Source: Thermincola ferriacetica
GTDB lineage: Bacteria > Bacillota > Thermincolia > Thermincolales > Thermincolaceae
Length of the DNA stretch: 64,000 nucleotides
Assembly: GCF_001263415.1 (NCBI RefSeq)
Contig: NZ_LGTE01000014.1
Span: 1-64,000, forward strand
Direction: 5' to 3'
The position numbers and the translations under genes are program-made. Position 1 is the first letter of the stretch. Each line of letters begins with the position of its first letter. Positions 8,493-29,908 of this stretch are shown here, piece after piece. The notes below the pieces were generated by a model that made no database searches, was not told where the DNA came from, and saw only the letters and a program-made list of their open reading frames with translations.

Positions 8493-8496
8493 TTAC

Positions 8497-8641: not shown

Positions 8642-8739
8642 TCCACCAAGTCGCAACTTAATGTTTTACCTCCATAGCGGTATTTTCTGTTTTTCTTAAA
8701 GCAATGGTTATTTCACCATGCAGCGCCTGCCGGCAACAG

Positions 8740-9897: not shown

Positions 9898-11367
9898 TTA
9901 AAGCCTTTTCGGGACAAACAGATATCTTCCGTCCTCTTCACCAATCACTTCATAATTATCATTTCGGAGCAGATCTTCCAGAACGGGCATTTCACTGTCG
10001 ACAATAAAGATGACGTTTCTATCCTTTATCTTTAATACTTCATTTAAGGCCCTTTTTTCTGCCAAAACGTCATGAAAATTATGCATTTCTTCCCTGCTGT
10101 ACAATTCAATCCTGATATCCGAATAAACATAATTATTTTCACGCCAGTCATCTTTGTTCAGAACAAAAAGAAGATAATCTGAAAGATATTGCTTGCAAAC
10201 AATTAGATTCTGAGTCATGGGCAGCCTGGCCAGCAGGTTTTCCAGAGGCAAAGGATCGGCAGGCAAAGGTTCATCAGACATCTTTTGGGAAACGAAAAAT
10301 CCCGTTAATCCTATCGCGACAATGATGCTGGTACCTATAAGAACCGCTCCGATTTTTCTTTTCTCTTTCAGAATATCGTCAACAACAGGCCCTGCAATAA
10401 AAATAAATACGGGAACTGTAAACATCATATTCCGGTAACTGTAAAGAATCAGGCCGGTAAAAACCAAACCCAAAAGATAATCCAGCAAAGCTCTCTTTTT
10501 ATATACCAGAGAAAATACTATCAGAACAGCCATCAAAAAAGGTGCAAAAAAGAATTTGAATACGAGGAACAGGGGAAACTTATAATCGTGTTCGAAATAA
10601 CGCTGCAGTACCGAAAAAGGCGAAGACCATTCAAGCACTTCATTGTGCCGGATATTTACACCGGAATGAAACAGGTCAATTAGAAAATCGTAGCGGTTAT
10701 GTATTAAAATAAAAAGTACAGTTATCAAACCAAGTGATACCGGCAAAACCCCTGTAAAAAAATAAAACTTTTCTTTCTCCCCGTCAACATAGGCATTTAC
10801 GGCAAATAAGACCAGAACCATCAAACCGTAAACCCAAAAACCGTGTACCTGGCTCCACACCATCAGTGTTAGTATTATCCCGCCAAAGAGACCGGCTGTC
10901 GGTTTTTGCCTGCATCTGTCGGCAGCAATGAAAAAAATCATAAAAAAAATTAACGACAGGATGTTTGGCCTGATATTTAAAAAAGGAATGGTAAAAAACA
11001 TAATGAATGAAAGCAGCAGCAGAAACGCCCGTCGGCTAAAGTACTTTAAGCCCAAATAAGTAAACATCAGTCCTATAAGAACTGACAGGAATACCCCGAT
11101 CATTTCTAAGGAAAAAAGACCGCCCATTTTATAAACCATATAAAAAAACAGTTGAGCAAGCCAGGAGTGATAAATCATGGGGCTGGCTTCATGGTTATAG
11201 ACCAGAAAACCTGTCTGGGGAACGCTATGGTGAGTGTATATATACCGTCCTGCCAGTAAGTGATACCATGTATCATCATGGACCTGTATACTTTCCATGA
11301 CGGCTGCTGCCGCAAAAACAATTATCACAGGTATAACAACTTTCCAGTTGCTTTTCAGAACTTCCAT
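9898..11367 (-). CDS. Polytopic membrane protein, GT-C glycosyltransferase-like
   Basis: This 489-residue protein has about ten hydrophobic segments and a C-terminal soluble domain of roughly 120 residues. Near the N-terminus it has an acidic pair in HDDTWYHLLAGRYI and a downstream HSWLAQLFFY, the arrangement of GT-C enzymes and mannosyltransferase-like membrane proteins, where the first loop Asp binds the lipid-linked sugar. Substrate unknown; O-glycosylation of exported proteins is one possibility. It is the last gene of the cytochrome locus, 46 bases after the first NHL gene, so it may act on the exported cytochromes or propellers. The functional call is inference from topology and motif position. 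Confidence 0.6.
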   Translation of the reverse strand: MEVLKSNWKVVIPVIIVFAAAAVMESIQVHDDTWYHLLAGRYIYTHHSVPQTGFLVYNHEASPMIYHSWLAQLFFYMVYKMGGLFSLEMIGVFLSVLIGLMFTYLGLKYFSRRAFLLLLSFIMFFTIPFLNIRPNILSLIFFMIFFIAADRCRQKPTAGLFGGIILTLMVWSQVHGFWVYGLMVLVLFAVNAYVDGEKEKFYFFTGVLPVSLGLITVLFILIHNRYDFLIDLFHSGVNIRHNEVLEWSSPFSVLQRYFEHDYKFPLFLVFKFFFAPFLMAVLIVFSLVYKKRALLDYLLGLVFTGLILYSYRNMMFTVPVFIFIAGPVVDDILKEKRKIGAVLIGTSIIVAIGLTGFFVSQKMSDEPLPADPLPLENLLARLPMTQNLIVCKQYLSDYLLFVLNKDDWRENNYVYSDIRIELYSREEMHNFHDVLAEKRALNEVLKIKDRNVIFIVDSEMPVLEDLLRNDNYEVIGEEDGRYLFVPKRL

Positions 11368-11413: not shown

Positions 11414-12346
11414 TTAATAGCCCCACACTGATATGGCATGCTTTTCTGTGTTGGCTATGTATATAATTCTGTTTTTCCGGTCAATGGCCAGTGTAGACGG
11501 ATTAAGCAGTTCTTTCCCGTAAGTAAACATAAATTTCCCCAGATTATCAAAAACAAAAACTTTTCCCACTCCGTTATCCACTATATGTATCCGGCCAAAT
11601 CCGTCCACGGCTATACCCTGCGGGTTTTTCATCCCGATATCCGCCGTCGGAAAATCATAAGCAAACCAACCGGCACAGTTAAATACCTTGACCTTTCCTC
11701 CGGCCGGGTCAGTGACCACCACACGGCCGTCTGATGTTACAACAATGCCATAGGGGAATTCCAGCTTCTTTTTTTCGTTGTCCCCCTTCACCTCCATGAT
11801 CATTTCCCCGTCCTGAAATACGGCCAACCAACCGTTAATATTCACATCGGTGACATAAAGTACTTCCCCGTAAACCGCAGCGCTGACCGGTTTTATCTGC
11901 CGTTCTTCCGCCGTTTCATAATAAGCATCCAGCAGCCTGCCATTCGGGGCATAGAAGCCTATACCCCCGTTCAGGTAGTCAGCAATCAGCAGTCCTCGCG
12001 CAGTGCTGACCATTCCCTGGGGCGCTCCCCGACTTTTCGTTATCTTTGCCCTGAAACTACCTTTTTTCACACCTTCCGGCGAAAATATATCTACCCTTTC
12101 CTCTCCAAAATAACTGACAAAAAGTTTCTTCTCGTAAACATAAACCCAGGCCGGTTTTTTGTCGTCCGGAACCCTGATTTCCCCCAAATAAACAGGCACA
12201 TCTTTCTCTCTTAAACTGCGATGCTTCAGGGTTAAAGGTTTATCGGCCTTTCTGTAAACCATCCAGGCTGCTCCCGTTGCTACCGCTATCATTACAAAAA
12301 GGGCGGTTATAATGAAGCTTTTTTTCTTCCACCTGTTTTCTGCCAT
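11414..12346 (-). CDS. Membrane-anchored NHL-repeat beta-propeller protein (1)
   Basis: This 310-residue protein has an uncleaved-type N-terminal anchor (about residues 10-30) and then NHL-type repeats with the pattern (P.GI.V..DGRV.V.D....KV.VF), five to six blades visible between about 50 and 308. The propeller should lie outside the membrane. NHL propellers are mostly protein-binding scaffolds and no catalytic residues are recognised. It shares layout with the propellers at 25956 and 28252. It sits between the CcsA gene, 17 bases upstream, and the GT-C-like gene. Confidence 0.8.
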   Translation of the reverse strand: MAENRWKKKSFIITALFVMIAVATGAAWMVYRKADKPLTLKHRSLREKDVPVYLGEIRVPDDKKPAWVYVYEKKLFVSYFGEERVDIFSPEGVKKGSFRAKITKSRGAPQGMVSTARGLLIADYLNGGIGFYAPNGRLLDAYYETAEERQIKPVSAAVYGEVLYVTDVNINGWLAVFQDGEMIMEVKGDNEKKKLEFPYGIVVTSDGRVVVTDPAGGKVKVFNCAGWFAYDFPTADIGMKNPQGIAVDGFGRIHIVDNGVGKVFVFDNLGKFMFTYGKELLNPSTLAIDRKNRIIYIANTEKHAISVWGY

Positions 12347-12363: not shown

Positions 12364-13209
12364 CTAATCAACCGGTCTGGTAATCAGATCAAGATTGTGA
12401 TAGGTATCAGGCGTTACAATCCCGACTGCCCAGAAACTGATTATATTTGTTAACAGGCACCCCAGGCAAAGCCAGGCCAATTTTTCTCCTTTCCAGCCAA
12501 AGGTAAAATGCAGGTGCAGGTAAATTCCGTAAACAAGCCAACTAAGCAGGGACCAGGTTTCCACAGGGTCCCAGCTCCAGTAACTGCCCCATAAAAGTTT
12601 TGCCCAGATAGAACCGCTCAAGAGCATTACAGTCCCTGCCATAAAACCGACCAGGACAAGCTTCACCGAAATCCGGTCCAGCCTGGACAGTTCAGGGAGA
12701 AAACGGAACCTGTCGGGCATTTCTTCCTTACAACTATTCTTTATCAAGTACAAAATACTTGTTCCCGCGGCAAAAACGTAACAGGCCGTGGAAAGCAGGG
12801 CAAAAAGCACATGAACCACCAGCCAGTTGCTCTTATAGGCGGCTGTTAACGGCTCAATCGCAGGGTTATCGGCATAACCCCAGCCCATGACCAGGAAAGC
12901 AAAAGGTACGGAAATTAAACCGACGGGTCCTGTATGGCTGTATATACGTCTGGCGGCCAGGTACACCCCCACAGCCAGCCAGGCAACGGTGATGTTTAAT
13001 TCATATAAGGTCCTGACCGGCAGGTGATCGGAAGTTACGGAACGGGTCACCACCACCACCGTATTGGCCAAAAATCCTGCCCAGATGATAACTTTTTCTG
13101 TTTTTTCGGCAAATACCTTGCCGCGGGCAAACCAGGCAATATAAAAAAGGGTGGCCCCAATGTAACTGCCAACGGTAACCCAAAAAAAGAACATCTCCGT
13201 TTTGGACAT
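12364..13209 (-). CDS. ccsA: Cytochrome c biogenesis protein CcsA/ResC
   Basis: CcsA (ResC) forms, with ResB, the System II synthase that moves heme across the membrane and attaches it to CxxCH motifs of exported cytochromes. This protein of about 281 residues has eight or so membrane helices. It carries the WWD-type heme-handling signature as WGSYWSWDPVETWSLLSWLVYGIYLHLHF in two adjacent parts, plus conserved His residues around HV and near the end (TYHN). The start at 13209 has AGGGGGAG seven bases upstream; an alternative ATG at 13227 overlaps the resB stop (ATGA) and would add six residues. Placement inside the cytochrome locus indicates a dedicated ligation system. Confidence 0.92.
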   Translation of the reverse strand: MSKTEMFFFWVTVGSYIGATLFYIAWFARGKVFAEKTEKVIIWAGFLANTVVVVTRSVTSDHLPVRTLYELNITVAWLAVGVYLAARRIYSHTGPVGLISVPFAFLVMGWGYADNPAIEPLTAAYKSNWLVVHVLFALLSTACYVFAAGTSILYLIKNSCKEEMPDRFRFLPELSRLDRISVKLVLVGFMAGTVMLLSGSIWAKLLWGSYWSWDPVETWSLLSWLVYGIYLHLHFTFGWKGEKLAWLCLGCLLTNIISFWAVGIVTPDTYHNLDLITRPVD

Positions 13210-13223
13210 CTGTGTTCTCCCCC

Positions 13224-14216
13224 TCATCTGCGGCTGAAAAAAACTCTGAAAAAAAGCCCGGCCACTGCCAGTATACTGCCCAGGTAAATAAAAATTTCAC
13301 CCGGATCACTGGAAACGTCAAACTTTTCCCAGAAACGGTGTTCTACAAACTTAACTTCAAATTTACCGACTTTTTTGCTCTGACCCTGCCGGATAATATT
13401 TTTGCCATCCTGCTGCCCGGATATTTTTATTTCGGTGGCCGGCTTTACGGGAAATACCTCATTCTGCACCGGCCTTCCACCGGGAGAAATATCCGGGTAG
13501 AACCTTACTTCCCATTCGCCCAGGTCCGGGATGGAAAACCGGTCGTAATAAACCCCGTCCCTGTGGGTGGCAATATTCAGGAAATCATCCAGTACCAATT
13601 TCCCCTGTTTTTTTACCTGCAGGCGAACCGAATACCCCCAGTTCATGGAACGCCAGTAGTAACCCATAAACTTTACGGGCCGGTTTATTTCCATTACCCG
13701 GCGGTTTGGAAAAGTCCCCGTAAAAAAGTCCAAATCACTCCGCACCTGCCCGACGTTGTTGCCTTCCCGCACCAGCTCCAGTTTTTTCAGACCTACGGTG
13801 TATTCCTCAAAAACATGAAGCCGGCCTTTTTCCATACTTTCCATGTCAGCAGGAAACTTTATAGCCACACCCTCCGGAATCATGACGCTTCCTCTCATGC
13901 CGAAAAGGGATGAAACAGCAAAGCCGAACAGAATCACCACCATTCCCGTATGAAAGATAACGGATCCCCAAACGGCAACATTAAATCTGGTACCTCGGGG
14001 CTCTCTGAACCGGGCAGACACCCTTAGCAGGGTACAGACCGTCATGCTCGCGGCCAGGCCGAAAAAAACAATACCGGTTAAGACCGTAGCAAACAGAGAC
14101 CCCGGCCCGTTCCGCCCCGGCAAAAGGTAAAATCTGACCAATATCCCGCCTAGCAGAGCCAGCATCAGTACGAGGGCCGTATTTATATATTTTTTCCCTG
14201 TCATTGCAATGTCCAC
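13224..14216 (-). CDS. resB: Cytochrome c biogenesis protein ResB/Ccs1
   Basis: This 330-residue ResB-family protein is the partner of CcsA. Helices near residues 10-30, 40-60 and 78-100 precede a large external domain (about 110-300) with the family-type strands VMEINRPVKFMGYYWRS and GEIFIYLGSILAVAGLF at the C-terminus. It is thought to hold apocytochrome thiols reduced and to channel them to CcsA. It lies 57 bases after the giant cytochrome and overlaps ccsA, so ligase and substrate are probably made together. It is somewhat short for the family, but complete. Confidence 0.9.
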   Translation of the reverse strand: MDIAMTGKKYINTALVLMLALLGGILVRFYLLPGRNGPGSLFATVLTGIVFFGLAASMTVCTLLRVSARFREPRGTRFNVAVWGSVIFHTGMVVILFGFAVSSLFGMRGSVMIPEGVAIKFPADMESMEKGRLHVFEEYTVGLKKLELVREGNNVGQVRSDLDFFTGTFPNRRVMEINRPVKFMGYYWRSMNWGYSVRLQVKKQGKLVLDDFLNIATHRDGVYYDRFSIPDLGEWEVRFYPDISPGGRPVQNEVFPVKPATEIKISGQQDGKNIIRQGQSKKVGKFEVKFVEHRFWEKFDVSSDPGEIFIYLGSILAVAGLFFRVFFSRR

Positions 14217-14273: not shown

Positions 14274-17200
14274 TTAATATGTCTTGGCGCCATGGTTGCA
14301 GGAATAGGATGATATTCCCGCCACGGCTAAAGTATTACAGCTTCGGGTTCCTGTCGTATCGACAGTTTGGATAAAGAATCCGTTAAGGCCTTTCACCGCC
14401 CGGTAACTTCCGTCAGACTGCGTTGAAAAAGCGGCATTTTCACCATGGAGGGAAACATACTGGGTGCTGTTCTGCATGTATCCGGCAAAGTGGCAGTAGC
14501 GGCATACATTGGTGCCAAAGGTCGCCATAAAAGCGTCTGCTGCCGCCGAGCTGACCTTGGTGGTCAGGTCGCCGTAATGGTTGGACTTCCTGTGATAACT
14601 GCCGGTAGGGTCACTATCCGCCAGTGTTGCGGCAGATGAATCATTACCGTACTCCGTCGCCGGGTGACACTCGTTGCAGAAGCTGGCACTCCGCGGGTTT
14701 CCTTTCAGGATATAATCCCAGTTAGACCCGTGCGGCCCTCGCGGCTTACCGCCGGTGGTATCGGGGTTACCGTGGCAGTCGGAACAGGTCATATTGAACC
14801 GCCGGTTCGGATTGCTCGGGTGGAAGGCATACCCCGGTTTTGACGGGTCATTGGGAAACAGTTTATCGGCCTTCGCATTAATCGTTGCATTGTTAAAAGA
14901 TGTCTTTTTAGTGAAACTGAAACCGTGGGTTGAAACGTTATTCGGATTGAGATAGGCCACTATCCGTTTACCGCCCGATGTCGCCCCCGAATAACTGGAA
15001 TGGCACTTAAAGCATACCATATATTCTTGCAGTTCAGCCGGTTCTGTGGACACATCCGGCACAAATTCATAAGTATAGCCGTCAATCGCATAGGGGTTGT
15101 TCTTCCACGTACTGCTGTTCGGGTCCGGCGTATTTACAGCCGGCGAAGCAATAACCTTGACCCCGCTGACTCCTTTAAAGGCCTTGGATAACCGGGTGGT
15201 TAAGGGTTCTGATGCATCCATGTCCTGCACCGCATGCACGTTGTGGCAGTCCAGGCATTCCACATGCCGCTCCGCGGTCTTGATATCCTCATCAAAGGAG
15301 TGGACCAGGAAGGTGCCGCCCGGCAGGTGCCCGATGCCTTTGTCCTCCCAGAATTTAAGGTTACTGGCGGCGGTTATTCCATTATGGCATGTATAGCACA
15401 CATTTTCTTCCCAGTCAAAGACATTACCTACAATATTTGTTACATTGCCCCAGGCATCAATAACAGCCGTACCGTGAGGATCATGGCAGTTGATGCATTT
15501 TCCTTTCTGGTCTGCCGCAGCAGGTTCAGTATAATAGGTCCCGCCCGGCCAGGACGCCTTAGCCTTATGCACCCCCGCACTAAATACGGCAAAGCCCGGG
15601 TAACCGCTGGTTTTGGCCTTAATGGCTGGATATTCATGGCACTTGTTGCAGATTTCGCTGTTCGGTCCGTCATTCATAACCAGCATCTTGGGAATAACCT
15701 TGGCCGGGTCAGTACTGCCGTCGGTGGTGCGCCCGTGGCTGTTATGGCAGTTCAGGCAGACACCTTTTTCCCACACAGTTTTGTTGTAAACTATCGGCGT
15801 GTTAAAGTCGGCCAGCCACTGGGCATTAAGACCGTGTTTCGAGTTGTTGTATACTTTGGACCCGTCAAAGAGCCCCGTATCGGCCACAACATCTTCCCTG
15901 TCGTGGCACTTCAGACATAACAGGTTCTTTTCTGCTCCCGCCTCGTTTACAGGGTACCGTAGCATGGCCCCCTCCGCATCTTTATGGGGTTCATGGCAGT
16001 TGATACACTCACCGCTGCCGTAATCAGCAAGCTTCATTTTACTGTTATAGGGCACTCCGGTAGACGGGTTAATACTGGAATTACCGTGGTAGGTCTTTTC
16101 GTATACTGTCTTGCCACCGTATTCGCCATAAGCATAAGCGTCGCCATGACAACCGTAGCACAACGGATTAAGGTTCTGACCGGTACCGGCATTGGCGGAA
16201 CTCTTGATATATTCCCTGGTCGTATTTTCCGTCCCGGGCACAAATCTGCCGTGAGGGTCATGGCAATTGTAGCATCTGCCCGCATCTTCGTATACCCTCT
16301 CCCCTACCCAGTAGCGCGGAGTATAACCGCCTGAATATGTCACATGGAACACATAATCGGTGCTGTCATAGGCCTTGCCGTGGGCGGTCTTGTTGTACTC
16401 CACAGCTCCCGCATACCTGCCGCTGGCCGAGGGATTGGTATGGCAGATAAAGCACAGGTTGTTGTCATCGGGCGCCCTTAAAAGGTGCTTATAGTCAGAC
16501 CCATGCGGTACATGGCACTTGGTACAGTTACTTTCATACTGGCTGTTGTCCGACATTTTATAAACCGGAAAATCAACATTGTGTTTGGACTTATAATAAG
16601 CGGCAGTAATTTTATGATTGACCGTAAACTTATTATAATCACCAGGCTGGGCTTTCCCCTGTTCATGGCAGGACATGCACAGCCAGAGTTCAATGGAATC
16701 ATCGCCTGTCCTGGCAGTAATTGCCGACACCGGCGCTGTCAATTCGGACATATTGCCGGACCGGTCATATGCGGCAATCCTGTAATAGTACAGGGTATTA
16801 CCCCTTAAACCGGTATCCGTAAAGGTCAGGTCTTCTGTCTCACCCACGCGCAGGTATTCGATATTGTTCCGGCTGCGGTAAACGGCGTAGGCCACCACAC
16901 CGTCGGTCTCAGCGAAAGGATTGGTCCACCCAAGTACCATCTCGTTCCTGCCGCCGGCCTGAACACTCAGGTTCTTTGGTTTATTTGGCGGTGTGGTATC
17001 GTCTGACAGGTTAAATGGCAAAGTGGCAGCGGATACTGTCGTTGCCGTGGACTGGTTGCCGTGCAGGTCAACAGCCTTCACCTGATAATAGTACGTAGTT
17101 CCCGGTTTCAGCCCGTAATCCATAAACCCGGTGGTCGTGGTTGAACCGGCCAGGTAATAGGGCCCTCCGGCCTGCAGTGCACGATATACATTGTAGCCAC

Positions 17201-20200
17201 CCAGGTCACCGGCCGTGTTGGCCGAAGCGCCCCACGACAGCCGCATGGTGGTAGTCCCGGGGGTTAACACCGGTCCCGAAGACACCCCTTCCGGCGCTGT
17301 GGTGTCGGCTCTCTTAATCATCAGCATGGCACCGTAATCGGCGACCAGCGGATTGCGGCGGGCGCTGCTGTATGCCTTGAAGTTAAAAATATACCACCAT
17401 CCGTCAGTTCCGCTTGGCACGGTAAAACGGAATCGAGCATAACCGTATTCATATTGTGGCGTTTCCCAGGTAGGTGTCAAAGACGACGCCGGGCCGTCAA
17501 AATCACTCCAGGTTAACGCCGGTGAGACGTAGGTAGTACCACCGGGATATTCGGTGAAAACTTTGGCGTAAACAGTCTGCCCCGGTTCAAAGACAAAGGC
17601 TTCCTGCGTCCTGGCTGCATCCTTGTAAAACTTGAAACCTTTAACTGTCGCCCCATACTTAATCACCTGATAGGGTTTGAGATTTATGCTGGTATTGGTG
17701 TAAACATCAGCTTCCAGGCGATAAGCGCCGCTATAAATATTGGCCGTGGGAAGCTGGACATTAAAGGTCAGTATATCCCATAACCCATCTTCCGATTCCG
17801 TATAGACAGCCGACGTAAAGGTGGCTCGGGTCACATTCAGGTGGTCCTTAAAGTAAACCTTGTTGCTGGCCGACGGATTCAGGCCACCTGAGCTCTTCTT
17901 GCGCTTAACCTTAACGACAGCGTTTGAACCAAGAGGGAATTCCGTGGTATGGTTGGCGTTTACATCCAGAATTTCAAAAACGGTATCGTCTTCCGTATAA
18001 TATCCCTTTTTCACATAATTGTCCGCCGACAAGGTCTGCCCATATACAGGAGCCGTCAATACCGAGAAGTTGCCGTTGTCATCAACTGCCTTAACCCTGT
18101 AATAATACCCTTTTTCCGGCGTCAGGGCAGAATCGGTAAAGCTGGTCAGACCTGTTGTTCCCGCCAGCACGCCCGTTGCCTCAGTAAAATCAGGACTGGT
18201 ACCCCGGTAAACATGATACTGGACCACCTTGTAATTGTCAGTGGAAGCCGTCCAGCTCAGGGTCAGCCGGGTGCTGCCGGCGTTTTCGGGCACAGATACC
18301 TTGAGGTTTGTCGGCACTGTCGGCGCCGTATGGTCACTGCTCAGGCCGGGCGTCACGGTGACAGGAGCAGCAAGGGGCGTCAAATCAACGTTATCGTTAT
18401 AATCCCGGGCATATACCTGATACCATACCGGTATACCCGGTTTCAGGCCACCATCTTCAAACCACACCATGTTGGTCGTCTGCCCTGCCTCGTTGTAAAC
18501 CCTGTTATTCACCGTACCGTATTTGGTCCAGGTGCCGTCAGCGCCTACTTTGCGGTAAACATAATAACCGTACACATCGGCAGATTCGGAAGCAGGCCAG
18601 TAAACCTCTGCGGCTACCGCGCTGGTTGCCTGAGCGAACAAACTAACCGGGTTCTTGGGCGCTGTCACATCTCCTGCCGTAGGCCGTTTATCTTTCAACA
18701 TATTGGCCCTTGGATTATGCATATGCGGCTTATGGCACATAACCATACAGTCGTTGGTACCCTTGCTGTTTGCATCTGTTATCGGATGGTAAGCTGTCTT
18801 GGCTACCACACCATAAGGCCAGGTCTGCTGATAAACGCCGGGCGACACCTCCTGCATAAACCCTGTCAGATTCTGTATTCGCGTGGTATAACCATTTTCA
18901 CCGTGGCAAGTAAAGCAGTTATAGTCACTGCCCACCGGATCGGGATCATGGGGGTTGTGGCATATGGTACACTGGGTCGGATTGTCTTTCCAGTGTTCGG
19001 GAATGGTTACCCCATGGGGGCCGACCAGCGGTATGCTATCAATCTTTACCATTGCACCCGGCGATGTCTCACTGGTGTAGTATACATAAGAAGATACACC
19101 CTCACCGGTATACTCCTTATGGCAGGTAATACAGAACTGGCGCGGTTTATACGGATTCACGACATTGTTCATATTTTCTGGGAAATATACCTGCTGGGAA
19201 ACCCCCTGGTATACCCAGGTAATGGTCTGGTTACGGGCATAACTGTTCTTGTCCCGTAAGTATTTGTTATTAGTGGAACCGTGCGGTACATGGCACTCGG
19301 CACAGTACATCTTGGCCGTCGGATAGTTCTTGTACCGGTGCCCTTTGGCCTCGTACTGGGTCTTCAGGTCAGGGATCAGGTCTCCTTTGCCGTCCCTGGT
19401 CTGCCCGTTATGGCAGTCCACACAGAGTTCGTCCTTGGGCAGTTTTAACAGGGGCGGGAACATGGACCCGTGCGGTACGTGGCACTTGTCACAGTTGCCC
19501 CGGAAGGTGCTGTTGTCGGAAAAGGTCTTTATCGGAATCTCGTAATCATGGGGCGTACCGGTATAAAGGCTTACATTTATAGTATACGGCGACCTGTAGG
19601 CTGCATCCGCCACACTGGAATGGCACTTCAGGCACAGGGACCTCTCATCCAGGCCGGGCAGTTCCTCCTTAATCAGGTCCGCCCGCGGGTCATGGGGATG
19701 CGGCTTATGACACCTGGTCATGCAGGTGTTGTCTTTGGTGTCAGCATCTGTTATCCGGTGGTGAGACTGCAGCCCGGGGTATACCCCTTCCAGACCCGCC
19801 AGAGCGCGGATATCCACGGCTTCTCCATCAGAACTGTGGCAGTTGTAACATTTGTCTTCGCCTCCGGTCGGTGGCCACGGTTTGTGGGGATCGTGGCAGA
19901 TGACACATTCCCTGGTCCCGGTAGATTTATGGTCGGCAATCCTGTCCGGGTACGGCAGCGGCTGAATCGTCACCTGCCCCACTTTGATGGTATAAACAGT
20001 ATTATAAACCCGGGCAGGTTGATCCGACGTGGGATGACAGGCCAGGCAGAACTGCCGCGACTTGCCCTGAACCGATATATTATTGGGGAAGGTAATCCCC
20101 GTCTGGTACTTGTTACTGGTATCCAGCAGATAAGAAACGTTATCTGTCCCGTGGGGGTCATGGCATTCCGTACACAACAGTTTCTTGGTCGGATTGGCTT

Positions 20201-23200
20201 TGATGTAATGGCCGCCGTGGCTGGCCGCATTATACTTGGACGAGATGTCCACTTCGCCGGGATAGCCGTCATGGCAGGCCATACAGGCATAAATTTTCCC
20301 ATTGTCCGTTGCGGCGTCTATGGCCACTCCGTCTATGGTTTTTCTCAACAGACGCACATTGGTAGAAGCATGGTGTTCATGGCATTTCAGGCACGGGTTA
20401 TCTATCCCGGGGCCATAAGGGTTACTTGAGGCATCCCGTTCCAGCAGAGAATGCTTTTTGCCGGCAAACTTGGACTTCTGGTCGCTGAGAATGGTCCGTT
20501 GATCAGGGCTGGTGCCGTGGCAGTGCCAGCAAAAATCTTTGTAGGCCGGTACTTCTTCTCCCGTATCAGGGTCAATTACCGTACCCAGCGTGGTGGAATC
20601 AGGCTTGTAGACCCAGTTGCTGGTAACGGTGGCCCGCAGCCCGTACGGGTTGGTGCTGTTGTGCAGGGTATGGTCTTCCAGATGGCACTGTTCACAGGTA
20701 ACCTTTACCTGGCTGACAGGCCCCGGTTGAAGGACCGGATGCCTTGAATTACGGTCAAAAGTATCAAAATCGTGACAGGCGGCGCACTTCAATGCCGGCG
20801 AGTTACCGGTGCGGATATAGGATTTGTAAGTGCCGCCGGAGACATAGTGGTCGTAATTATGGCACTTGATGGCACAGGAAAAGCCAGTCTCCTGAAGATT
20901 GACGCCATAAGCCGGAATAAAAGCAAGCCTGTTGGGCGAATAAGCTGTCGAAGCCACGGCAATGCCCGTCTGTACAGCCCAGTCAAAACTGATGTAATGC
21001 CCGTTATCCAGCGTCCACCCCGGTTGACTGTTGTTAAACATACTTTTGCCGGAATGCGGGTCATGGCATGCCCGGCAGCTCACTTTCCACTTAACGTGAG
21101 TATGGTAGTTTTTACCATTACCATTTCCAAAATTACTTCCCACGGTCGGGTTCATATTTCCATTTATGCCGGTATAATATTGGCTGTCATGGCAGCGGAA
21201 ACAGATAGTTTCTTTCTCCGTATTCCAATTGGCATTCCACTCCACCGGTCCGTAAACTTTACTATTTACAACAGTGGTAGTGAACTTATCATTATAGTAA
21301 TTTCTTAACATATACCTGTTAGAAATATGCCCGTGCGGTTCGTGGCACATGGTACAGGTATTCCGGCCATAAAAATTCTGTTCATGGGTAGTTCCCAGGT
21401 AATTGTTGGACTGGTTCCATAAATAAACGCCAGTTTTCACAGTACCGTCATCATTGAGCACTTTTGTGGATGTAAACCCGTGGTCCTTATGACAGGTAAT
21501 ACAGAAATTGGCAGAATTGGATGTAATAATCAGCGGATAATCCTTGGACCCATGAGGCGCATGGCAGTTCCGGCATGTGATACCTGTCAGCGTTGAACTG
21601 GGCTCAAGGGTATTGTGCTTTGAATTGATAAAGGCCGTTTTATGGTCCTGGCCGAAGGGGTTGGGCAAGTCGGAATTCAGCCCGTGACAGGCCCAGCAGA
21701 AGTCATTGCCCCGCCTTTTTATCCTGCCGTCTTCCTTGGAAACAGTTGACAATAACCGGTAAACCGTTTCGGTCACCGTATCCCCGTCTTTCTTAATTAC
21801 CATAGGCGAACTGTAATGGGGGTTATGACAGACATCGCACGAATACCTGCCCTCCGGAACCTTGTGGTGCGAAGGATTATTGACAGGATCAAAGGCCGCC
21901 TTGGTGTTATATTTGCTCTGTGAGCCGTCATGGCAGGTATAACAGGAATCTGTTATAGAACTATAGTAAATCAGTTCGGCGCCCCTGGATGAATGAGTAG
22001 AGTGACAGTTCTGGCACAGGGTATCATTGGAACTGGACTTGTAATTCCCGTGGGGACTAACTCCGTAGTCTACCGTGGGTGTAGCCGATACATAAGAACT
22101 CATGGCCGACATTTTTCCGGCCACATCCACAGCCACCACTTTGTAGTAATAAGTTGTACCGTATTTGGCCGTACTGTCCGTAAAATAAACCGCTTTCATT
22201 ACAACATTGGGCGAACTGCTGATTTGATAACTTACGGTTGAATTGCAGGGGGTTTGTGTCAACCTGGCGTAATTTCCCGCCGGTTCGGTGGACCTGTAAA
22301 CATGATACCCGATTATGTCACCTTCCGTATTGGCGCTCCACTCAAGTCTAACAATTCTCTTGGATGGGTCCAAAGGGTTCTCAGTCAGCGACGCTTTCAG
22401 CCCCTGGGGCGCAAGTGGAGCTGCACCGTCAGTCCGCGGCGGTGCCAGAGTGGTAGTGGAACTGCTGAAACTGTAAGGCGAAACGTTTCCACATTTATCC
22501 ACGGCCGTAACCATGTAATAATAGGTGGTTTCCGCCAGCAGTTCCCGATCGGTGTAGGACGTGGATGTGGAATAACCGATATATTCATAGGGGCCGGAAG
22601 CCGAGGTAGCCCGGTAAATTTCATACCCGTCGACCCCGGTGCTGTTGGGAGCAGGGTCTGATGCGGGATCCCAGGTAAGTGTCACAGAACCGGCCGTTAG
22701 GCTGCTGAACCTGATATTGGCTGTTTTGGATGGCGACCAGTCCGGCGGAGTTGTATCATCATATACGGTGACGGCCACCGTCTGCTCATTGTACCCCAGC
22801 CTGCCTGTACTGGATGTGCCTATTCCAAGCACTCTCAAGTTATAAGTTCCAAAGGGCATCTGGTCATCAACTTTGACATTTACGCTAAACACCTCATCAT
22901 GAGCGGTCCCATTGCGATCTATGTACGGCCCGGAAGTGGACCCGTCATCAAGGGTAACACCTTTTTGCCCATTTGGGTTTGTTGTAGCCGGAAAGGCCGT
23001 CACCCAGATATAGGGGCTTTCCACCGGCGCCCCGTACATGGTGGACTGTTCGGCCCTGGCCCAGGGTACATCTCCTCCGGACATCTGCGACATGGTCCAC
23101 TTGGAGGCATCAGCCACCTGCAGGGCCCCCGCCACAGTAAACCGGCCGTAGCCAAGGCCGACGGTCCGGTAAGTCATGTTGAAACTGCCGCCCCTGGTGA

Positions 23201-23429
23201 CAGTCACGGCGTTGGTCCGCGGTACTTTGCCGTTGAGCGTTTCGATAGTCAGATAGCCCGTTTCATATGTATGGCAGGAGGTACAATAGGGCACATCCCC
23301 GGTGGTGGAACTGTCCACATGGTTATTGGGCCAGCTAAGGGCCACGGCCGGCACAATTAGGCACGTCCCCACCAACAGCAGGACTACCAGCCATTTTCTG
23401 TTTTTCATTATTTCCTTATACATTCTCAT
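14274..23429 (-). CDS. Giant exported multiheme cytochrome c with fibronectin III domains (45 candidate hemes)
   Basis: This 3051-residue protein has a signal sequence (KWLVVLLLVGTCLIVPAVA). I count 42 CxxCH motifs and three CxxxCH motifs. Layout: one heme site near residue 49; two fibronectin III-like domains (about 230-455); 25 CxxCH plus the three CxxxCH sites (about 468-1575); two more fibronectin domains (1588-1795); a beta-rich domain (1800-2040); two more fibronectin domains (2040-2240); then 16 CxxCH sites to about 3010. Many sites read CxxCHxPHG, giving a nearby second His ligand. No C-terminal anchor is present, so it is probably secreted or wall-associated. It should act as a long electron wire to extracellular acceptors (metals, humics, electrodes); that is inference. 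The ribosome site GGGTGAGGGA precedes the ATG. The frame is unbroken over 9.1 kb. Confidence 0.93.
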   Translation of the reverse strand: MRMYKEIMKNRKWLVVLLLVGTCLIVPAVALSWPNNHVDSSTTGDVPYCTSCHTYETGYLTIETLNGKVPRTNAVTVTRGGSFNMTYRTVGLGYGRFTVAGALQVADASKWTMSQMSGGDVPWARAEQSTMYGAPVESPYIWVTAFPATTNPNGQKGVTLDDGSTSGPYIDRNGTAHDEVFSVNVKVDDQMPFGTYNLRVLGIGTSSTGRLGYNEQTVAVTVYDDTTPPDWSPSKTANIRFSSLTAGSVTLTWDPASDPAPNSTGVDGYEIYRATSASGPYEYIGYSTSTSYTDRELLAETTYYYMVTAVDKCGNVSPYSFSSSTTTLAPPRTDGAAPLAPQGLKASLTENPLDPSKRIVRLEWSANTEGDIIGYHVYRSTEPAGNYARLTQTPCNSTVSYQISSSPNVVMKAVYFTDSTAKYGTTYYYKVVAVDVAGKMSAMSSYVSATPTVDYGVSPHGNYKSSSNDTLCQNCHSTHSSRGAELIYYSSITDSCYTCHDGSQSKYNTKAAFDPVNNPSHHKVPEGRYSCDVCHNPHYSSPMVIKKDGDTVTETVYRLLSTVSKEDGRIKRRGNDFCWACHGLNSDLPNPFGQDHKTAFINSKHNTLEPSSTLTGITCRNCHAPHGSKDYPLIITSNSANFCITCHKDHGFTSTKVLNDDGTVKTGVYLWNQSNNYLGTTHEQNFYGRNTCTMCHEPHGHISNRYMLRNYYNDKFTTTVVNSKVYGPVEWNANWNTEKETICFRCHDSQYYTGINGNMNPTVGSNFGNGNGKNYHTHVKWKVSCRACHDPHSGKSMFNNSQPGWTLDNGHYISFDWAVQTGIAVASTAYSPNRLAFIPAYGVNLQETGFSCAIKCHNYDHYVSGGTYKSYIRTGNSPALKCAACHDFDTFDRNSRHPVLQPGPVSQVKVTCEQCHLEDHTLHNSTNPYGLRATVTSNWVYKPDSTTLGTVIDPDTGEEVPAYKDFCWHCHGTSPDQRTILSDQKSKFAGKKHSLLERDASSNPYGPGIDNPCLKCHEHHASTNVRLLRKTIDGVAIDAATDNGKIYACMACHDGYPGEVDISSKYNAASHGGHYIKANPTKKLLCTECHDPHGTDNVSYLLDTSNKYQTGITFPNNISVQGKSRQFCLACHPTSDQPARVYNTVYTIKVGQVTIQPLPYPDRIADHKSTGTRECVICHDPHKPWPPTGGEDKCYNCHSSDGEAVDIRALAGLEGVYPGLQSHHRITDADTKDNTCMTRCHKPHPHDPRADLIKEELPGLDERSLCLKCHSSVADAAYRSPYTINVSLYTGTPHDYEIPIKTFSDNSTFRGNCDKCHVPHGSMFPPLLKLPKDELCVDCHNGQTRDGKGDLIPDLKTQYEAKGHRYKNYPTAKMYCAECHVPHGSTNNKYLRDKNSYARNQTITWVYQGVSQQVYFPENMNNVVNPYKPRQFCITCHKEYTGEGVSSYVYYTSETSPGAMVKIDSIPLVGPHGVTIPEHWKDNPTQCTICHNPHDPDPVGSDYNCFTCHGENGYTTRIQNLTGFMQEVSPGVYQQTWPYGVVAKTAYHPITDANSKGTNDCMVMCHKPHMHNPRANMLKDKRPTAGDVTAPKNPVSLFAQATSAVAAEVYWPASESADVYGYYVYRKVGADGTWTKYGTVNNRVYNEAGQTTNMVWFEDGGLKPGIPVWYQVYARDYNDNVDLTPLAAPVTVTPGLSSDHTAPTVPTNLKVSVPENAGSTRLTLSWTASTDNYKVVQYHVYRGTSPDFTEATGVLAGTTGLTSFTDSALTPEKGYYYRVKAVDDNGNFSVLTAPVYGQTLSADNYVKKGYYTEDDTVFEILDVNANHTTEFPLGSNAVVKVKRKKSSGGLNPSASNKVYFKDHLNVTRATFTSAVYTESEDGLWDILTFNVQLPTANIYSGAYRLEADVYTNTSINLKPYQVIKYGATVKGFKFYKDAARTQEAFVFEPGQTVYAKVFTEYPGGTTYVSPALTWSDFDGPASSLTPTWETPQYEYGYARFRFTVPSGTDGWWYIFNFKAYSSARRNPLVADYGAMLMIKRADTTAPEGVSSGPVLTPGTTTMRLSWGASANTAGDLGGYNVYRALQAGGPYYLAGSTTTTGFMDYGLKPGTTYYYQVKAVDLHGNQSTATTVSAATLPFNLSDDTTPPNKPKNLSVQAGGRNEMVLGWTNPFAETDGVVAYAVYRSRNNIEYLRVGETEDLTFTDTGLRGNTLYYYRIAAYDRSGNMSELTAPVSAITARTGDDSIELWLCMSCHEQGKAQPGDYNKFTVNHKITAAYYKSKHNVDFPVYKMSDNSQYESNCTKCHVPHGSDYKHLLRAPDDNNLCFICHTNPSASGRYAGAVEYNKTAHGKAYDSTDYVFHVTYSGGYTPRYWVGERVYEDAGRCYNCHDPHGRFVPGTENTTREYIKSSANAGTGQNLNPLCYGCHGDAYAYGEYGGKTVYEKTYHGNSSINPSTGVPYNSKMKLADYGSGECINCHEPHKDAEGAMLRYPVNEAGAEKNLLCLKCHDREDVVADTGLFDGSKVYNNSKHGLNAQWLADFNTPIVYNKTVWEKGVCLNCHNSHGRTTDGSTDPAKVIPKMLVMNDGPNSEICNKCHEYPAIKAKTSGYPGFAVFSAGVHKAKASWPGGTYYTEPAAADQKGKCINCHDPHGTAVIDAWGNVTNIVGNVFDWEENVCYTCHNGITAASNLKFWEDKGIGHLPGGTFLVHSFDEDIKTAERHVECLDCHNVHAVQDMDASEPLTTRLSKAFKGVSGVKVIASPAVNTPDPNSSTWKNNPYAIDGYTYEFVPDVSTEPAELQEYMVCFKCHSSYSGATSGGKRIVAYLNPNNVSTHGFSFTKKTSFNNATINAKADKLFPNDPSKPGYAFHPSNPNRRFNMTCSDCHGNPDTTGGKPRGPHGSNWDYILKGNPRSASFCNECHPATEYGNDSSAATLADSDPTGSYHRKSNHYGDLTTKVSSAAADAFMATFGTNVCRYCHFAGYMQNSTQYVSLHGENAAFSTQSDGSYRAVKGLNGFFIQTVDTTGTRSCNTLAVAGISSYSCNHGAKTY

Positions 23430-23443
23430 AGTCCCTCACCCTT

Positions 23444-25891
23444 TTAATCGGGATGGTTGGTCTTATCATGGCAGTCTTCACAACCCGTGGTTTTGTCAAA
23501 CCGTTTCAGGCAGGTGGACTCAAACCCGTCGCGTCTGATATGTTTACCGGTATTTGTGGTACCGTGGGTGTAGTGGCAGGTCTGGCAGATAATTTTTCCG
23601 TTTTCGTAAGGCAGATAATCAGGCAGGGGCACTGCGTAAGCCGTCTTGGTCACATACTGTGCGCTGACATTAACCGGGTGCATGTACATATGCATGGATG
23701 CATTCGACAAGGTCATCCCAGGCTGCTGCGTAGTGCTAATAGCATTCCGGCTGGCACCGGCCCCTTGGTTAAAGTCACTGTGGCAGGCGCCGCAGAATTC
23801 AACGGCCCCCCTCACATAGACAGTTTTTTCCCTTTTGTTGGCAGGGTCTGTGACAGCATAGGCCTCCACCGTGATAAGCGGGGGATTTTCGGTATTAAGA
23901 ACATTCATGTTTGTGCGTAAGTTGCGGTAATTATCGGACCCATGGGGGTCATGACAGGAACTGCAGGACAGGTTGGCATCAGCCACCTCAACGTTCTCAA
24001 TATTATTGCCCGGTGCAGCGTAGTTATATATATTGAGATCATGTCTGGAAGTCGGTATGTAGGCAGAACCGGCCGCCGTTGCCCCTCCTATGGACCCGTA
24101 AGGTCCGGCAATGGAATTGTACCAGGTAGTCCTGTAAACATCTGTCCAAACACCGTTGGGGTCTTTCGTCTGATCTGACGTGGGCCCAAGTAACTTGCCG
24201 TTAATTACATCATACTTGCTCTGGGTCCCGTCATGGCATGTTACACATAAACGGTCGGCATTGACTTCCTTTATCAACTTGGGTCCCAGGGCCGAATGGG
24301 TATAATGGCAGTTGCCGCAAAGCTCTGGGTTGTCCCAATAGTATCCGTGTGGGTTGCCGTGCGGGTTGTTCCCCGGAGGAAAAGCCCTAATGGTGCTGTA
24401 ACCCACCTGGCCGCTTCCGTTAATGGCATAAACCCGGACAAAATAGTTTGTATACGCCGTTAGAGAACCTTGATAATATGTATATTGTGTCTTGCCCGCT
24501 TCATCGGCGATGGTCGCCACCGGCGCTCCCCAATCATTTGAGGTGGAAACATAAACTTTGTAACTTACAGCTTCAGGAACGTCCTTCCAGTACACAGAAA
24601 GGTTAACCGTAGGTGTTGAACCTGTCTTAACCGCAGTTATTTTTGGCCTCAGGTCATTTAAAGTGGTAAAGGAATACTCCCCCGAAATACCCAGATTACC
24701 GCTCAGATCCCGTGACTTAACACGAAAGTAATAGGTGGTCAGGTTTTCCAACCTCTTCAGGTAAACAGCATGGGCAGTAGTTCTGGCATCGTACGAAATT
24801 GACCATTTGTAAACACCCGGTTCGGTGCCGTAATCCACAATGGAGTTGCCGGGCTCACTTGTATTCCAGTAGATCGTAACCGTATCGGCAGCAATATCCC
24901 CGGAAGAAACATTGTACACACTGGGAGCCACCGTATCAAGTTCGGCAGCGGTAGTAAATACCCGGTCCTCGCTTACCGCGGTATTGCCTGCCGCATCGGT
25001 AACAGTAATCTTATAATGATACTGGGTATTTAAAGAGAGGCCTGTCAAATCAACTTCATGTTTAAAGTCCCTGGCCGTTTGCGTCCTGTAAAACCCGTAA
25101 GCTTCCGTCGGGCCGTAATCAATCCGGTAGGAGGTGGATTCATTGGTGGAAAAACTGATGGTTGCAGCAGTTCCGGCAATTTCTTTTTCAGTCACAGATA
25201 AAATAACAGGCGGGGTAACATCCCAGACAAAAATATCATCAAAGTACACCTGTCTGTTAAATTCACCCAGCGCAATCTTGCCGTAGTTCAAGGAAGTATC
25301 GGCTGTGAATCCGATTAACTGGTTGTTGCAATATATTTCAATATTTGAACCCTTAAACTTGACCTTTATAACTGCCGGGTAAGGATTATTGGGAACAGTA
25401 GCGGCGTCCTCGCCTATATAAGGTACCTTCGGGTTCGTTGCCCGCTCCATAGTCAGCAGGTTATATCTTACTCCGTTTTTCTTGCTGTATAAGACAAACC
25501 TGGCAGAATTGGCACCGGCAGCCCCTGTCTCATCACAACTGTATTCCAGGCCGTAGTGGTTGTTTTCGTCCTGCCACCTGCCGGCAATATAGAATTTGCC
25601 TGTCCGGTCATTGGAATATACTTTGGCTTCCACCGCATAGTCCGTCCAACTGAGTGACCCGGCGGCAGCCCAGTTGGTTTCCGTATCAGGTTTGGTTAAT
25701 TCCGTATATTGGCCGTTGACAACTGCCCAGTTACCCTTTACAGAAGTCCAGTCATAGGCGCCCATATTAAATTCGTCGCTGAAGTAGGTACCCTGCTGTG
25801 ACCGGGCCGGAGAGGCAAAATAGGCTACATTGGCCGCTACAGTTGCAACGGCAATTAAAATTAACAATTTTTTGTATCTAAACTTCTGCAT
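23444..25891 (-). CDS. Exported 6-heme cytochrome with LamG-like and fibronectin III domains
   Basis: This protein of about 815 residues has a signal sequence (KKLLILIAVATVAANVAYFA), then a LamG/concanavalin-like jelly-roll domain (about 35-230, DEFNMGAYDWTS to VYFDDIFVWD), three fibronectin III-like domains (about 232-520) and a C-terminal heme domain with six CxxCH motifs (CGNCH, CVTCH, CSSCH, CGACH, CQTCH, CEDCH). The heme domain is clearly paralogous to that of 26970-28184: the same DGTQSKYD, SCHDPHG and ACHSDxNQ landmarks. ATG at 25891 follows AAAGGGGAGAGAGG; the longer frame from 26029 would run through the neighbouring NHL gene and is rejected. It lies 14 bases upstream of the giant cytochrome. 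The jelly-roll may bind polysaccharide or a mineral surface. Confidence 0.88.
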   Translation of the reverse strand: MQKFRYKKLLILIAVATVAANVAYFASPARSQQGTYFSDEFNMGAYDWTSVKGNWAVVNGQYTELTKPDTETNWAAAGSLSWTDYAVEAKVYSNDRTGKFYIAGRWQDENNHYGLEYSCDETGAAGANSARFVLYSKKNGVRYNLLTMERATNPKVPYIGEDAATVPNNPYPAVIKVKFKGSNIEIYCNNQLIGFTADTSLNYGKIALGEFNRQVYFDDIFVWDVTPPVILSVTEKEIAGTAATISFSTNESTSYRIDYGPTEAYGFYRTQTARDFKHEVDLTGLSLNTQYHYKITVTDAAGNTAVSEDRVFTTAAELDTVAPSVYNVSSGDIAADTVTIYWNTSEPGNSIVDYGTEPGVYKWSISYDARTTAHAVYLKRLENLTTYYFRVKSRDLSGNLGISGEYSFTTLNDLRPKITAVKTGSTPTVNLSVYWKDVPEAVSYKVYVSTSNDWGAPVATIADEAGKTQYTYYQGSLTAYTNYFVRVYAINGSGQVGYSTIRAFPPGNNPHGNPHGYYWDNPELCGNCHYTHSALGPKLIKEVNADRLCVTCHDGTQSKYDVINGKLLGPTSDQTKDPNGVWTDVYRTTWYNSIAGPYGSIGGATAAGSAYIPTSRHDLNIYNYAAPGNNIENVEVADANLSCSSCHDPHGSDNYRNLRTNMNVLNTENPPLITVEAYAVTDPANKREKTVYVRGAVEFCGACHSDFNQGAGASRNAISTTQQPGMTLSNASMHMYMHPVNVSAQYVTKTAYAVPLPDYLPYENGKIICQTCHYTHGTTNTGKHIRRDGFESTCLKRFDKTTGCEDCHDKTNHPD

Positions 25892-25955
25892 GCCTCTCTC
25901 CCCTTTCATCACAGCCAACTGAAGTCTCAAAGTATTCTCTGTGCGCAATAAACAT

Positions 25956-26954
25956 CTATCTGCCAAAGACTTGAATCCTGTTGTTTTCCCGGTCAGCCAC
26001 GTAAATCCTGCCTCTGTTGTCCACAGCAACAGCCGTTGGAAAATTAAACTGGCCTATATCCAGCCCCCGCTGGCCTATTGTTTCAATTTCATTGCCTCTT
26101 TTGTCCAGGACATGGATTTTGTGGGCCAGGGTATCGGCGACATAAAGGCTGCCCGTGCTTTCCTCAAAAGCAATCCCTTTCGGGTTGGCCGCACCTTTAC
26201 CGCTTATCCTGTCGGGCAGATACCGGCCGTTAAGGTCAAAAGTATCTATCCGCCCATTATTTGAATTAGCGAGATAAATTTCACCTGCATCTTCATTTAC
26301 AGCTATCCCGTTCACATATGACAATTCACCGGGATTACTGCCGGCGCGCCCAAAGTACCGGACAAACCGTCCGCTGTCATCGAACACCACAATCCGGTGT
26401 TGACTGACATCCGAAACATAAACATTCCCACTCCGGTCAACAGCCACAGTAACCGGAAAAATGTTGCCGCCAAGTTCTCTCAGGTCTTTTCCCCTGGGTA
26501 AAACACTCAATTGTTTGCCGTCAAAATTTAATACCTGGACACGGCGGTTGTAGAAATCAGCAACATAAATTTTCCGGCCGTATACCGCAATTCCTGTCGG
26601 GTAGTTAAATTCCCCTGGGCCTGCGCCCTGTTTGCCGAGAACGGTTTTAAAAGCTCCGTTGGCATCAAAAACTGCCACCCGGTGGTTAGCGCTGTCGGCC
26701 ACAAAAACATCGCCCCATTCACTGACAGCCACTCCCAATGGCCTGCTCATAACGCCGGGTTCATAAATACTGAACAGGTATTTATGCTTATCCGGTGGAG
26801 CAAAGGTTACAGTAAAAGGGTTGCGCTTGGTTCGGAAGTAGTACCAGCCAAAGAAAATAAGCGCAGCAATGATCAGAACCAAAATGGCTATTATTAAATC
26901 TTTTTTATTTACCTTTTTCTCTCTGATTTTGTTCAGTAAAGTATTCAGCCGCAT
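25956..26954 (-). CDS. Membrane-anchored NHL-repeat beta-propeller protein (2)
   Basis: This 332-residue protein has an N-terminal transmembrane helix (about residues 19-42, LIIAILVLIIAALIFFGWYY) and six clear NHL repeats with the canonical (P.GVAV...G.VFVADS.NHRVAVFD) pattern, evenly spaced by 45-48 residues from about 68 to 330. It is the most regular of the three propellers. Its gene lies between the two 6-heme cytochrome genes, 15 bases after the upstream one. A scaffold or docking function for the cytochromes is inferred from context; NHL propellers bind protein, RNA or sugar, and the ligand cannot be told. Confidence 0.88.
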   Translation of the reverse strand: MRLNTLLNKIREKKVNKKDLIIAILVLIIAALIFFGWYYFRTKRNPFTVTFAPPDKHKYLFSIYEPGVMSRPLGVAVSEWGDVFVADSANHRVAVFDANGAFKTVLGKQGAGPGEFNYPTGIAVYGRKIYVADFYNRRVQVLNFDGKQLSVLPRGKDLRELGGNIFPVTVAVDRSGNVYVSDVSQHRIVVFDDSGRFVRYFGRAGSNPGELSYVNGIAVNEDAGEIYLANSNNGRIDTFDLNGRYLPDRISGKGAANPKGIAFEESTGSLYVADTLAHKIHVLDKRGNEIETIGQRGLDIGQFNFPTAVAVDNRGRIYVADRENNRIQVFGR

Positions 26955-26969
26955 TACAGTACCTCCGGT

Positions 26970-28184
26970 TTACTTTTTGTGGCATTCTTCGCAGACAGCC
27001 TGCCTGTCAAGACGAATCAAGGCTGTGGAACCGGTTCTCTGGCTTATTCCCTTCCTGGCAGTACCGTGGGAATGATGACAGGTAATGCAAACTATAGTGT
27101 TGACGCCTGTCCCAACTTCCAGGGGCAAAGACGTTGTGAGGTACTCGCCTTTATAGTAGAGGGGAGTGTTTACTGCATGGATAAACTTGTTCATAGAAGC
27201 GGCAGTAAGTGGAAAACCGGGCTGCTGGGTGGAGGTGGCGGCCACGCTTCCGCTTCCCGAAGGCTGGTTGTAATCACTGTGGCAGGCCGAACAAAAATAG
27301 ATACTGCCCGTATCATAGGTAATATTTTCACCGTACCCGCTCGATTTGGCGGGATCGGTTTCCGCAAAAGCCCGAAAATTAACATTTACAGACAGCGTAT
27401 CCGTTACCCGGATAACTGTTCGCAAGTTCCTGAAGTTCCCGCCTTTCCCATGGGGGTCGTGGCAGCTTTCACAGCTCAGACCTGTCAGCCGGTCACTCAC
27501 GCCACCGGGAGCCACATTAAAAGAAACACCAAGGTTATGAATGGAAGTAGGACTGTTATTAATGGCTACATTGCTCTCAGACGTATATCCTGCATAAACA
27601 GCAGAATATACCGATTCTCCCACGGGCAAATTCTCCTCTGTACGCAACGCTCCGAATGGCCCGCCGGAAGTCTCAGCCCAGTCCCCGTTAGGAAGTTTGA
27701 CCCTGCCGTTCATAACGTCATATTTGCTTTGAGTTCCGTCATGGCAGGTGGTACAAAGAGCCACAGCATTGGGCGCTTTCATCAGATAAACTCCGGATGC
27801 GGCATGGGTGACATGACAGGCAGCACAGTAACTGCTATCGGTTTTATACGAACCATGCGGGTTGTTGTCAGGGGGAAAAGCTACCCCCACCGCAGTACTC
27901 CCTGTGCTGTCCTGTATTTTAAAGTAATAATTTACGTAGTTCCTGCATCCGGTATATGTAAAAGAAGACACAGTCACACCAGTTGCCTTCTGGCTCCAAT
28001 CCTGGCCGTCAAGACTGCAGTATATGGTAAAGGGAGGAGTACCCTGGAAATAGACGGTGCTGACACTCGTTGTAGGAGATTCATAAGTGATCTTAACCCC
28101 GTCAATAGTAACTGCTGCCAGGGCGGGGGAAATAACAGTAAAGAGAAAAAAACAAGCCAATATAAGCGATTTTCTCATTAACAT
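26970..28184 (-). CDS. Exported 6-heme cytochrome c
   Basis: This protein of about 404 residues has a signal sequence (KSLILACFFLFTVISPALA), a small beta-sandwich (about 22-105, fibronectin-like) and six CxxCH motifs: CAACH, CTTCH, CESCH, CSACH, CITCH and CEECH. It is a shorter paralogue of the 23444-25891 protein, sharing the DNNPHGSY start of the heme domain, DGTQSKYDV, SCHDPHG and ACHSDYNQ. ATG at 28184 is nine bases after GGGGGAG; frames starting earlier have the ribosome site inside them. There is no membrane anchor after the signal. It could deliver electrons from the membrane to the larger cytochromes; this is inference. Confidence 0.88.
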   Translation of the reverse strand: MLMRKSLILACFFLFTVISPALAAVTIDGVKITYESPTTSVSTVYFQGTPPFTIYCSLDGQDWSQKATGVTVSSFTYTGCRNYVNYYFKIQDSTGSTAVGVAFPPDNNPHGSYKTDSSYCAACHVTHAASGVYLMKAPNAVALCTTCHDGTQSKYDVMNGRVKLPNGDWAETSGGPFGALRTEENLPVGESVYSAVYAGYTSESNVAINNSPTSIHNLGVSFNVAPGGVSDRLTGLSCESCHDPHGKGGNFRNLRTVIRVTDTLSVNVNFRAFAETDPAKSSGYGENITYDTGSIYFCSACHSDYNQPSGSGSVAATSTQQPGFPLTAASMNKFIHAVNTPLYYKGEYLTTSLPLEVGTGVNTIVCITCHHSHGTARKGISQRTGSTALIRLDRQAVCEECHKK

Positions 28185-28251
28185 TCCTGGCATCTCCCCC
28201 TTTGGTGATTTCACCGGTAAAATTTAAACTTAAAGAATCCTGGTCAATTAA

Positions 28252-29196: not shown

Positions 29197-29236
29197 CGGC
29201 AATTTACCTCCAAAGCTGTATCAGTCTTCATCCATT

Positions 29237-29890: not shown

Positions 29891-29908
29891 TACCATCCCT
29901 CCAAAAAA

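Follow-up and report, generated by a model that had tools for sequence, protein, structure and literature searches.

The locus raises the question of whether one very long reading frame encodes a genuine multiheme cytochrome and, if so, how such a protein could serve extracellular electron transfer in a bacterium of Gram-positive type. In the window (the whole stretch of 64,000 nucleotides analyzed here, from a genome of 3.18 Mb in 78 contigs), the frame was found on the minus strand at 14274-23429, and the plus-strand reading of the same stretch was full of stops. The first-pass annotation had claimed 42 CxxCH and 3 CxxxCH motifs. The exact count agreed, giving 45 sites in 3051 residues, with CxxxCH at residues 852, 1236, and 1561 and no Cx4CH. 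Shuffling of the protein at constant composition produced 0.1 CxxCH motifs on average and 2 at most, and 90 of the 95 cysteines lay within heme motifs. Pfam matches were obtained for Paired_CXXCH_1 (225 bits), Cytochrome_C7, and Cytochrom_c3_2, all above the cut-offs. Assignment to the DmsE-type decaheme family was also tried and dropped; TIGR03508 scored 152 bits against a cut-off of 192, in scattered stretches. The heme sites were arranged as 1 + 28 + 16, at residue 49, residues 472-1566, and residues 2251-2980. As annotated, two heme blocks (28 and 16 sites) flank a fibronectin III (FN3)/beta cassette, but the annotated layout had left out the lone site at residue 49 and an N-terminal beta/FN3 stretch. 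The gene and its parts are as follows.

14274..23429, minus strand: giant multiheme cytochrome gene, 3051 aa, 45 heme sites
23340..23429, minus strand: signal peptide, about residues 1-30; hydrophobic peak of 2.68 in the first 45 residues, AVA-type cleavage site by eye
23271..23285, minus strand: isolated N-terminal heme site CTSCH, residues 49-53, kept in all full-length orthologs
22065..23270, minus strand: N-terminal beta domain and two FN3-like domains, residues 54-455, the fastest-evolving part
18675..22064, minus strand: heme block 1, 28 sites, residues 456-1585, from motif count and ortholog alignment
16710..18674, minus strand: heme-free FN3/beta cassette, residues 1586-2240, kept in all orthologs
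14475..16709, minus strand: heme block 2, 16 sites, residues 2241-2985, from motif count and ortholog alignment
14277..14474, minus strand: C-terminal tail, residues 2986-3051, with two invariant Cys and one His

Next, relatives of the gene were compared. Intact full-length orthologs of 3054-3060 amino acids and 56-72% identity were found in G001, G002, and G003, which belong to one genus, and in G005. Two Carboxydocella genomes carried orthologs of 2792 amino acids, and a partial ortholog in G009 kept all 38 heme His columns that it covered, so that the orthologs span five genera in all. The gene was present in 6 of the 10 genomes of the class, and in a phylum-wide sample of 399 genomes the two Carboxydocella were the only other carriers. 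A frame break, a possibility raised by the first-pass annotation itself, found no counterpart in the relatives: the same full-length frame was open in four other assemblies of the order (3056-3062 codons) and in Carboxydocella. Between congeners, dN/dS lay at 0.06-0.09 for the heme blocks and at 0.09-0.14 for the cassette, and rose to 0.18-0.33 for the first FN3 pair; judged by these ratios, the gene is under purifying selection. Therefore, it is very unlikely, to the point of being negligible, that the giant frame is an artefact of a pseudogene or an assembly fusion. Together with the signal peptide, these results bore out the annotated single, intact, exported protein.

The heme sites were conserved position by position. 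All 45 heme His columns aligned in each of the four full-length orthologs of the class, and the Carboxydocella ortholog kept 44 of the 45 sites. Furthermore, 51 His residues outside the motifs were invariant across the orthologs where present, against 45 hemes, indicating that there are enough second ligands for bis-His ligation of every heme; we infer that the sites are occupied and ligated in this way. The remaining Carboxydocella site is CxxxCK. In both orthologs, this site, which matches residue 852, reads CYLNCK (L021:11183-19561) and may hold a Lys-ligated heme c; in the vicinity are several CcsB-like genes. In a scan of genome contigs by exact peptides, which would overlook orthologs below ~60% identity and has no bearing on absence, for example in Thermincola, the nearest named relative was the MAG HGW-Firmicutes-14 (70% in the best segment), followed by Carboxydocella thermautotrophica. 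The Carboxydocella thermautotrophica ortholog (41% identical, 42 CxxCH and 2 CxxxCH) resembles the present gene also in its NHL-hexaheme-giant neighborhood with CcsB genes, but differs in lacking the first FN3 pair and in its one CxxxCK site. Strain 41T is reported to have 30 multiheme cytochromes (PMC6085454).

The giant gene belonged to a run of eleven ORFs in one direction, from 30487 down to 9898, with gaps of less than 60 bases. The other ten members are listed in the order of the run.

29909..30487, minus strand: anchored protein, family not recognised, first gene of the run, N-terminal anchor
29237..29896, minus strand: TPR protein, N-terminal anchor
28252..29202, minus strand: NHL-repeat protein, N-terminal anchor
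26970..28214, minus strand: OmcS-like hexaheme cytochrome (P0002)
25956..26954, minus strand: NHL-repeat propeller protein, N-terminal anchor
23444..26029, minus strand: FN3 domains and OmcS-like hexaheme domain (P0003); the true start probably lies inside this ORF
13224..14216, minus strand: ResB-like heme-lyase subunit (Pfam PF05140, 74.3 bits)
12364..13227, minus strand: CcsB-like heme-lyase subunit (TIGR03144, 169 bits, just under the cut-off of 187.6)
11414..12346, minus strand: NHL-type protein, N-terminal anchor
9898..11367, minus strand: polytopic membrane protein, family not recognised, last gene of the run

A single N-terminal hydrophobic anchor was found in each of the TPR, NHL, and first-gene proteins, which may act as membrane-anchored assembly or docking factors. 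The ResB/CcsB pair would constitute a dedicated System II heme lyase for the giant cytochrome. The order TPR-NHL-hexaheme-NHL-FN3/hexaheme-giant-ResB-CcsB-NHL was identical in the window genome (G000), G001, G002, G003, and G005, all of one taxonomic order. Of this order, NHL-hexaheme-giant is retained in Carboxydocella, next to a 49-heme protein and several CcsB copies. The polytopic membrane protein gene was not found beside the orthologs, and no promoter or terminator signals above chance were detected at the operon ends. A parallel with Geobacter, in which an NHL gene would flank omcS, was not borne out by the literature, where GSU2505 is listed only as hypothetical. Beyond the downstream end of the operon, an Rfam TwoAYGGAY RNA candidate was observed at window positions 8490-8648 on the minus strand (46.7 bits, cut-off 43). 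The window also has UPF0302/IDEAL, AddB-type, and AddA-like genes and a bacterial DNA polymerase III alpha gene, as expected of a Bacillota-type bacterium. A RACo-type corrinoid-activation gene at 62361-63977 and NuoE/NuoF-like and ferredoxin-type genes at 32069-35161 hint at an acetogen-like or C1 metabolism.

We then analyzed the relationship among the giant protein, the operon hexahemes, and OmcS. P0002 was 36% identical to the C-terminal half of P0003, and its heme domain contained six CxxCH and six further invariant His among orthologs. Searches of the hexahemes against PDB sequences by phmmer and hmmsearch gave no cytochrome-filament match, so hhalign was run against OmcS itself to test for homology; the OmcS sequence used matched chain 6EF8 over all 407 residues. 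The P0002 family profile matched OmcS with a probability of 98.8% and a score of 125.9, over hemes 1-3 only. Controls in which OmcS was shuffled reached at most 52.7 with the motifs fixed and 66.6 with the motifs and all His fixed (n = 100 each). The start of heme block 1 scored 146.6 against the P0002 profile, and in a blastp comparison with P0002 the giant protein matched at residues 416-627 (E = 2.7e-12); this likeness includes a conserved CHxxH arrangement. Heme block 1 as a whole matched OmcS directly at a weak 25% probability. On these profile comparisons, P0002-type hexahemes are homologous to OmcS, and the start of block 1 is homologous to the hexahemes. Block 1 also contained a tandem unit of seven hemes in two copies.

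19656..20396, minus strand: tandem 7-heme unit, copy A, residues 1012-1258
18681..19496, minus strand: tandem 7-heme unit, copy B, residues 1312-1583

The two copies aligned with a score of 358, compared to a maximum of 116 in shuffles. Together with the homology of the block 1 start, this tandem duplication suggests that internal duplication accounts for part of the growth of the giant protein and that the protein has a module in common with the filament-type hexahemes. Because of that homology, including CHxxH, we also considered that the giant protein might itself polymerise into a filament. However, known cytochrome filaments are built of small subunits with 4-8 hemes (PMC9473688), and the bulky FN3 cassettes would be expected to hinder regular stacking; such a filament is quite improbable. 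With 8 sequences, AlphaFold2 gave no usable heme geometry for heme block 1 (mean pLDDT 26), and with 15 sequences for the hexaheme, the heme domain reached pLDDT ~30, with only the N-terminal beta domain well predicted.

The relevant known systems are OmcS of Geobacter (PDB 6EF8) and CwcA of Thermincola (Tfer_0075). The six-heme family of P0002 and P0003 matches hemes 1-3 of OmcS, and the giant protein is linked to that family through its block 1 start. The giant protein differs from OmcS and CwcA in its 45 hemes, its FN3/beta cassettes, and its length of 3051 residues. CwcA comes from a Gram-positive bacterium and is assigned to the wall; this OmcS-like hexaheme has been proposed as the conduit through Thermincola walls, which are 20-80 nm thick (PMC7911101).

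The heme-free parts of the giant protein bear on where it acts. FN3 and Ig-like domains were found by the Pfam scan, and the central cassette of 655 residues (~1586-2240) matched fn3 with 93.8 bits; we read this cassette as two FN3-like domains, ~235 residues of unclassified beta type, and two further FN3-like domains, the exact domain number being our own reading. The same scan found no S-layer, peptidoglycan-binding, or known mineral- or sugar-binding domains, and both an LPxTG motif and a hydrophobic segment after the signal peptide were absent. An S-layer-fusion cytochrome was rejected, given the lack of an S-layer Pfam domain and of any hydrophobic segment past the signal peptide. The FN3 and Ig-like domains, and a sequence devoid of wall-spanning or anchoring motifs, would also suit a terminal reductase and adhesin lying wholly outside the wall, whose FN3 domains attach to minerals, polysaccharide, or partner cells and whose heme blocks exchange electrons with the solid while a hexaheme filament crosses the wall. 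The OmcS-like hexahemes of the same operon are indeed the better-precedented wall conduit. Nevertheless, the first FN3 pair was poorly conserved and is missing in Carboxydocella, and the binding domains to be expected for minerals or sugars did not appear in the Pfam scan. This location entirely outside the wall is possible, and we regard it with some doubt.

By heme number, the protein had been annotated as among the largest cytochromes c, which proved to be overstated. The same genome encodes a protein of 2115 amino acids with 58 CxxCH (L037:10701-17048 = G000:C1:76700-83047), which lies in a parallel cluster together with cytochromes of 10, 12, and 17 hemes and TPR, NHL, and hexaheme genes. 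Its relatives have 67 hemes in G009 (L069:6957-14192) and 73 in G002 (L068:9166-16965), and Carboxydocella has a 49-heme version. In the literature, Methanoperedenaceae reach 69 and 113 hemes (PMC7082337), an ANME-2c fosmid encodes 86 hemes in one protein (PMC9012536), and Desulfuromonas acetexigens has up to 86 motifs (PMC12133095). With 45 hemes, the protein is large, not exceptional. The giant ANME cytochromes (MHC types A-C and the 113-heme Methanoperedens protein) are likewise exported multiheme proteins of great length that include heme-free accessory domains, and their proposed role is electron passage through the outermost layer (PMC9012536, PMC7082337). However, they are archaeal, have S-layer or pectin-lyase-like domains, and in some cases a C-terminal membrane helix, none of which was found here. 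The Desulfuromonas acetexigens proteins are bacterial giants linked to extracellular electron transfer (PMC12133095), a likeness drawn by description, and their host, unlike ours, has an outer membrane.

A distant relative of 1176 amino acids with 25 CxxCH was observed in the MAG Bacillota bacterium SKS3.bin3 (L022:17483-21013), downstream of genes with 10, 12, and 17 CxxCH, the same count series as in the second cluster of the window genome. Elsewhere in that genome, a doubled-CXXCH match with an in-frame TGA (G000:C15:37034-37108) is possibly a broken multiheme gene. A tail with two Cys and one His (such as SCGSDSKQCDDHKGY) is common to several giant cytochromes and absent from the hexahemes; similar tails occur in L037:10701-17048, L068:9166-16965, L069:6957-14192, L021:442-5784, and L034:9795-14567. 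This tail is possibly a disulfide or sorting feature.

The 45 hemes of this protein and the 58 of another one encoded by the genome could also point to an electron store, in which the hemes mainly act as a capacitor buffering respiratory electrons when the acceptor is out of reach. However, a store needs neither the position-by-position conservation of 45 sites nor a fixed operon with hexahemes, and we consider it unlikely. The reading toward which we lean, with modest confidence, is that this giant protein is a true c-type cytochrome, made by a bacterium of Gram-positive type (Bacillota-like), and acts with the hexahemes in extracellular electron transfer across or over the wall. The signal peptide would export the protein, and the System II (ResB/CcsB) lyase encoded immediately downstream would probably load its ~45 hemes. 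Long covalent heme chains could then carry electrons through and over the cell wall and exchange them with the OmcS-like hexahemes of the same operon, and the FN3/beta segments may position the protein in the wall or on the surface. The location, the continuity of the chain, and the transfer with its direction are what we infer from these features.

In OmcS-like packing, the spacing is ~0.8 nm per heme. At that spacing, block 1 would reach ~20 nm and block 2 ~12 nm. In the first-pass annotation, the split layout suggested a pair of wires linked by a spacer both rigid and adhesive, a picture that is hypothetical here. If stretched out, a spacer of about six beta domains of 100 residues each would far exceed the electron-tunnelling range and thus break, not join, the wire, so the heme-free cassette counts against one continuous wire. 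The gap between the blocks could be closed if the protein folds back or if partner cytochromes bridge it. A more specific form is a covalently fused counterpart of the nanowires, in which an OmcS-like module was duplicated into a 28-heme wall-crossing chain, followed past the cassette by a 16-heme chain, with hexaheme filaments docking; we put this forward as speculative and rather improbable. If true, it would represent a way across the wall that differs from both porin-cytochrome complexes and S-layer fusions.

Giant multiheme cytochromes are already known; what is notable here is the Gram-positive host, the heme-by-heme conservation, and the operon with OmcS-like hexahemes. It is not settled how Gram-positive iron reducers pass electrons across their wall of 20-80 nm, and the giant cytochrome is a concrete candidate for this step. 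Its candidacy rests on heme positions kept almost one for one in five genera, a fixed operon, and a heme lyase of its own. Since the cultured Carboxydocella thermautotrophica has an ortholog, the idea is directly testable.
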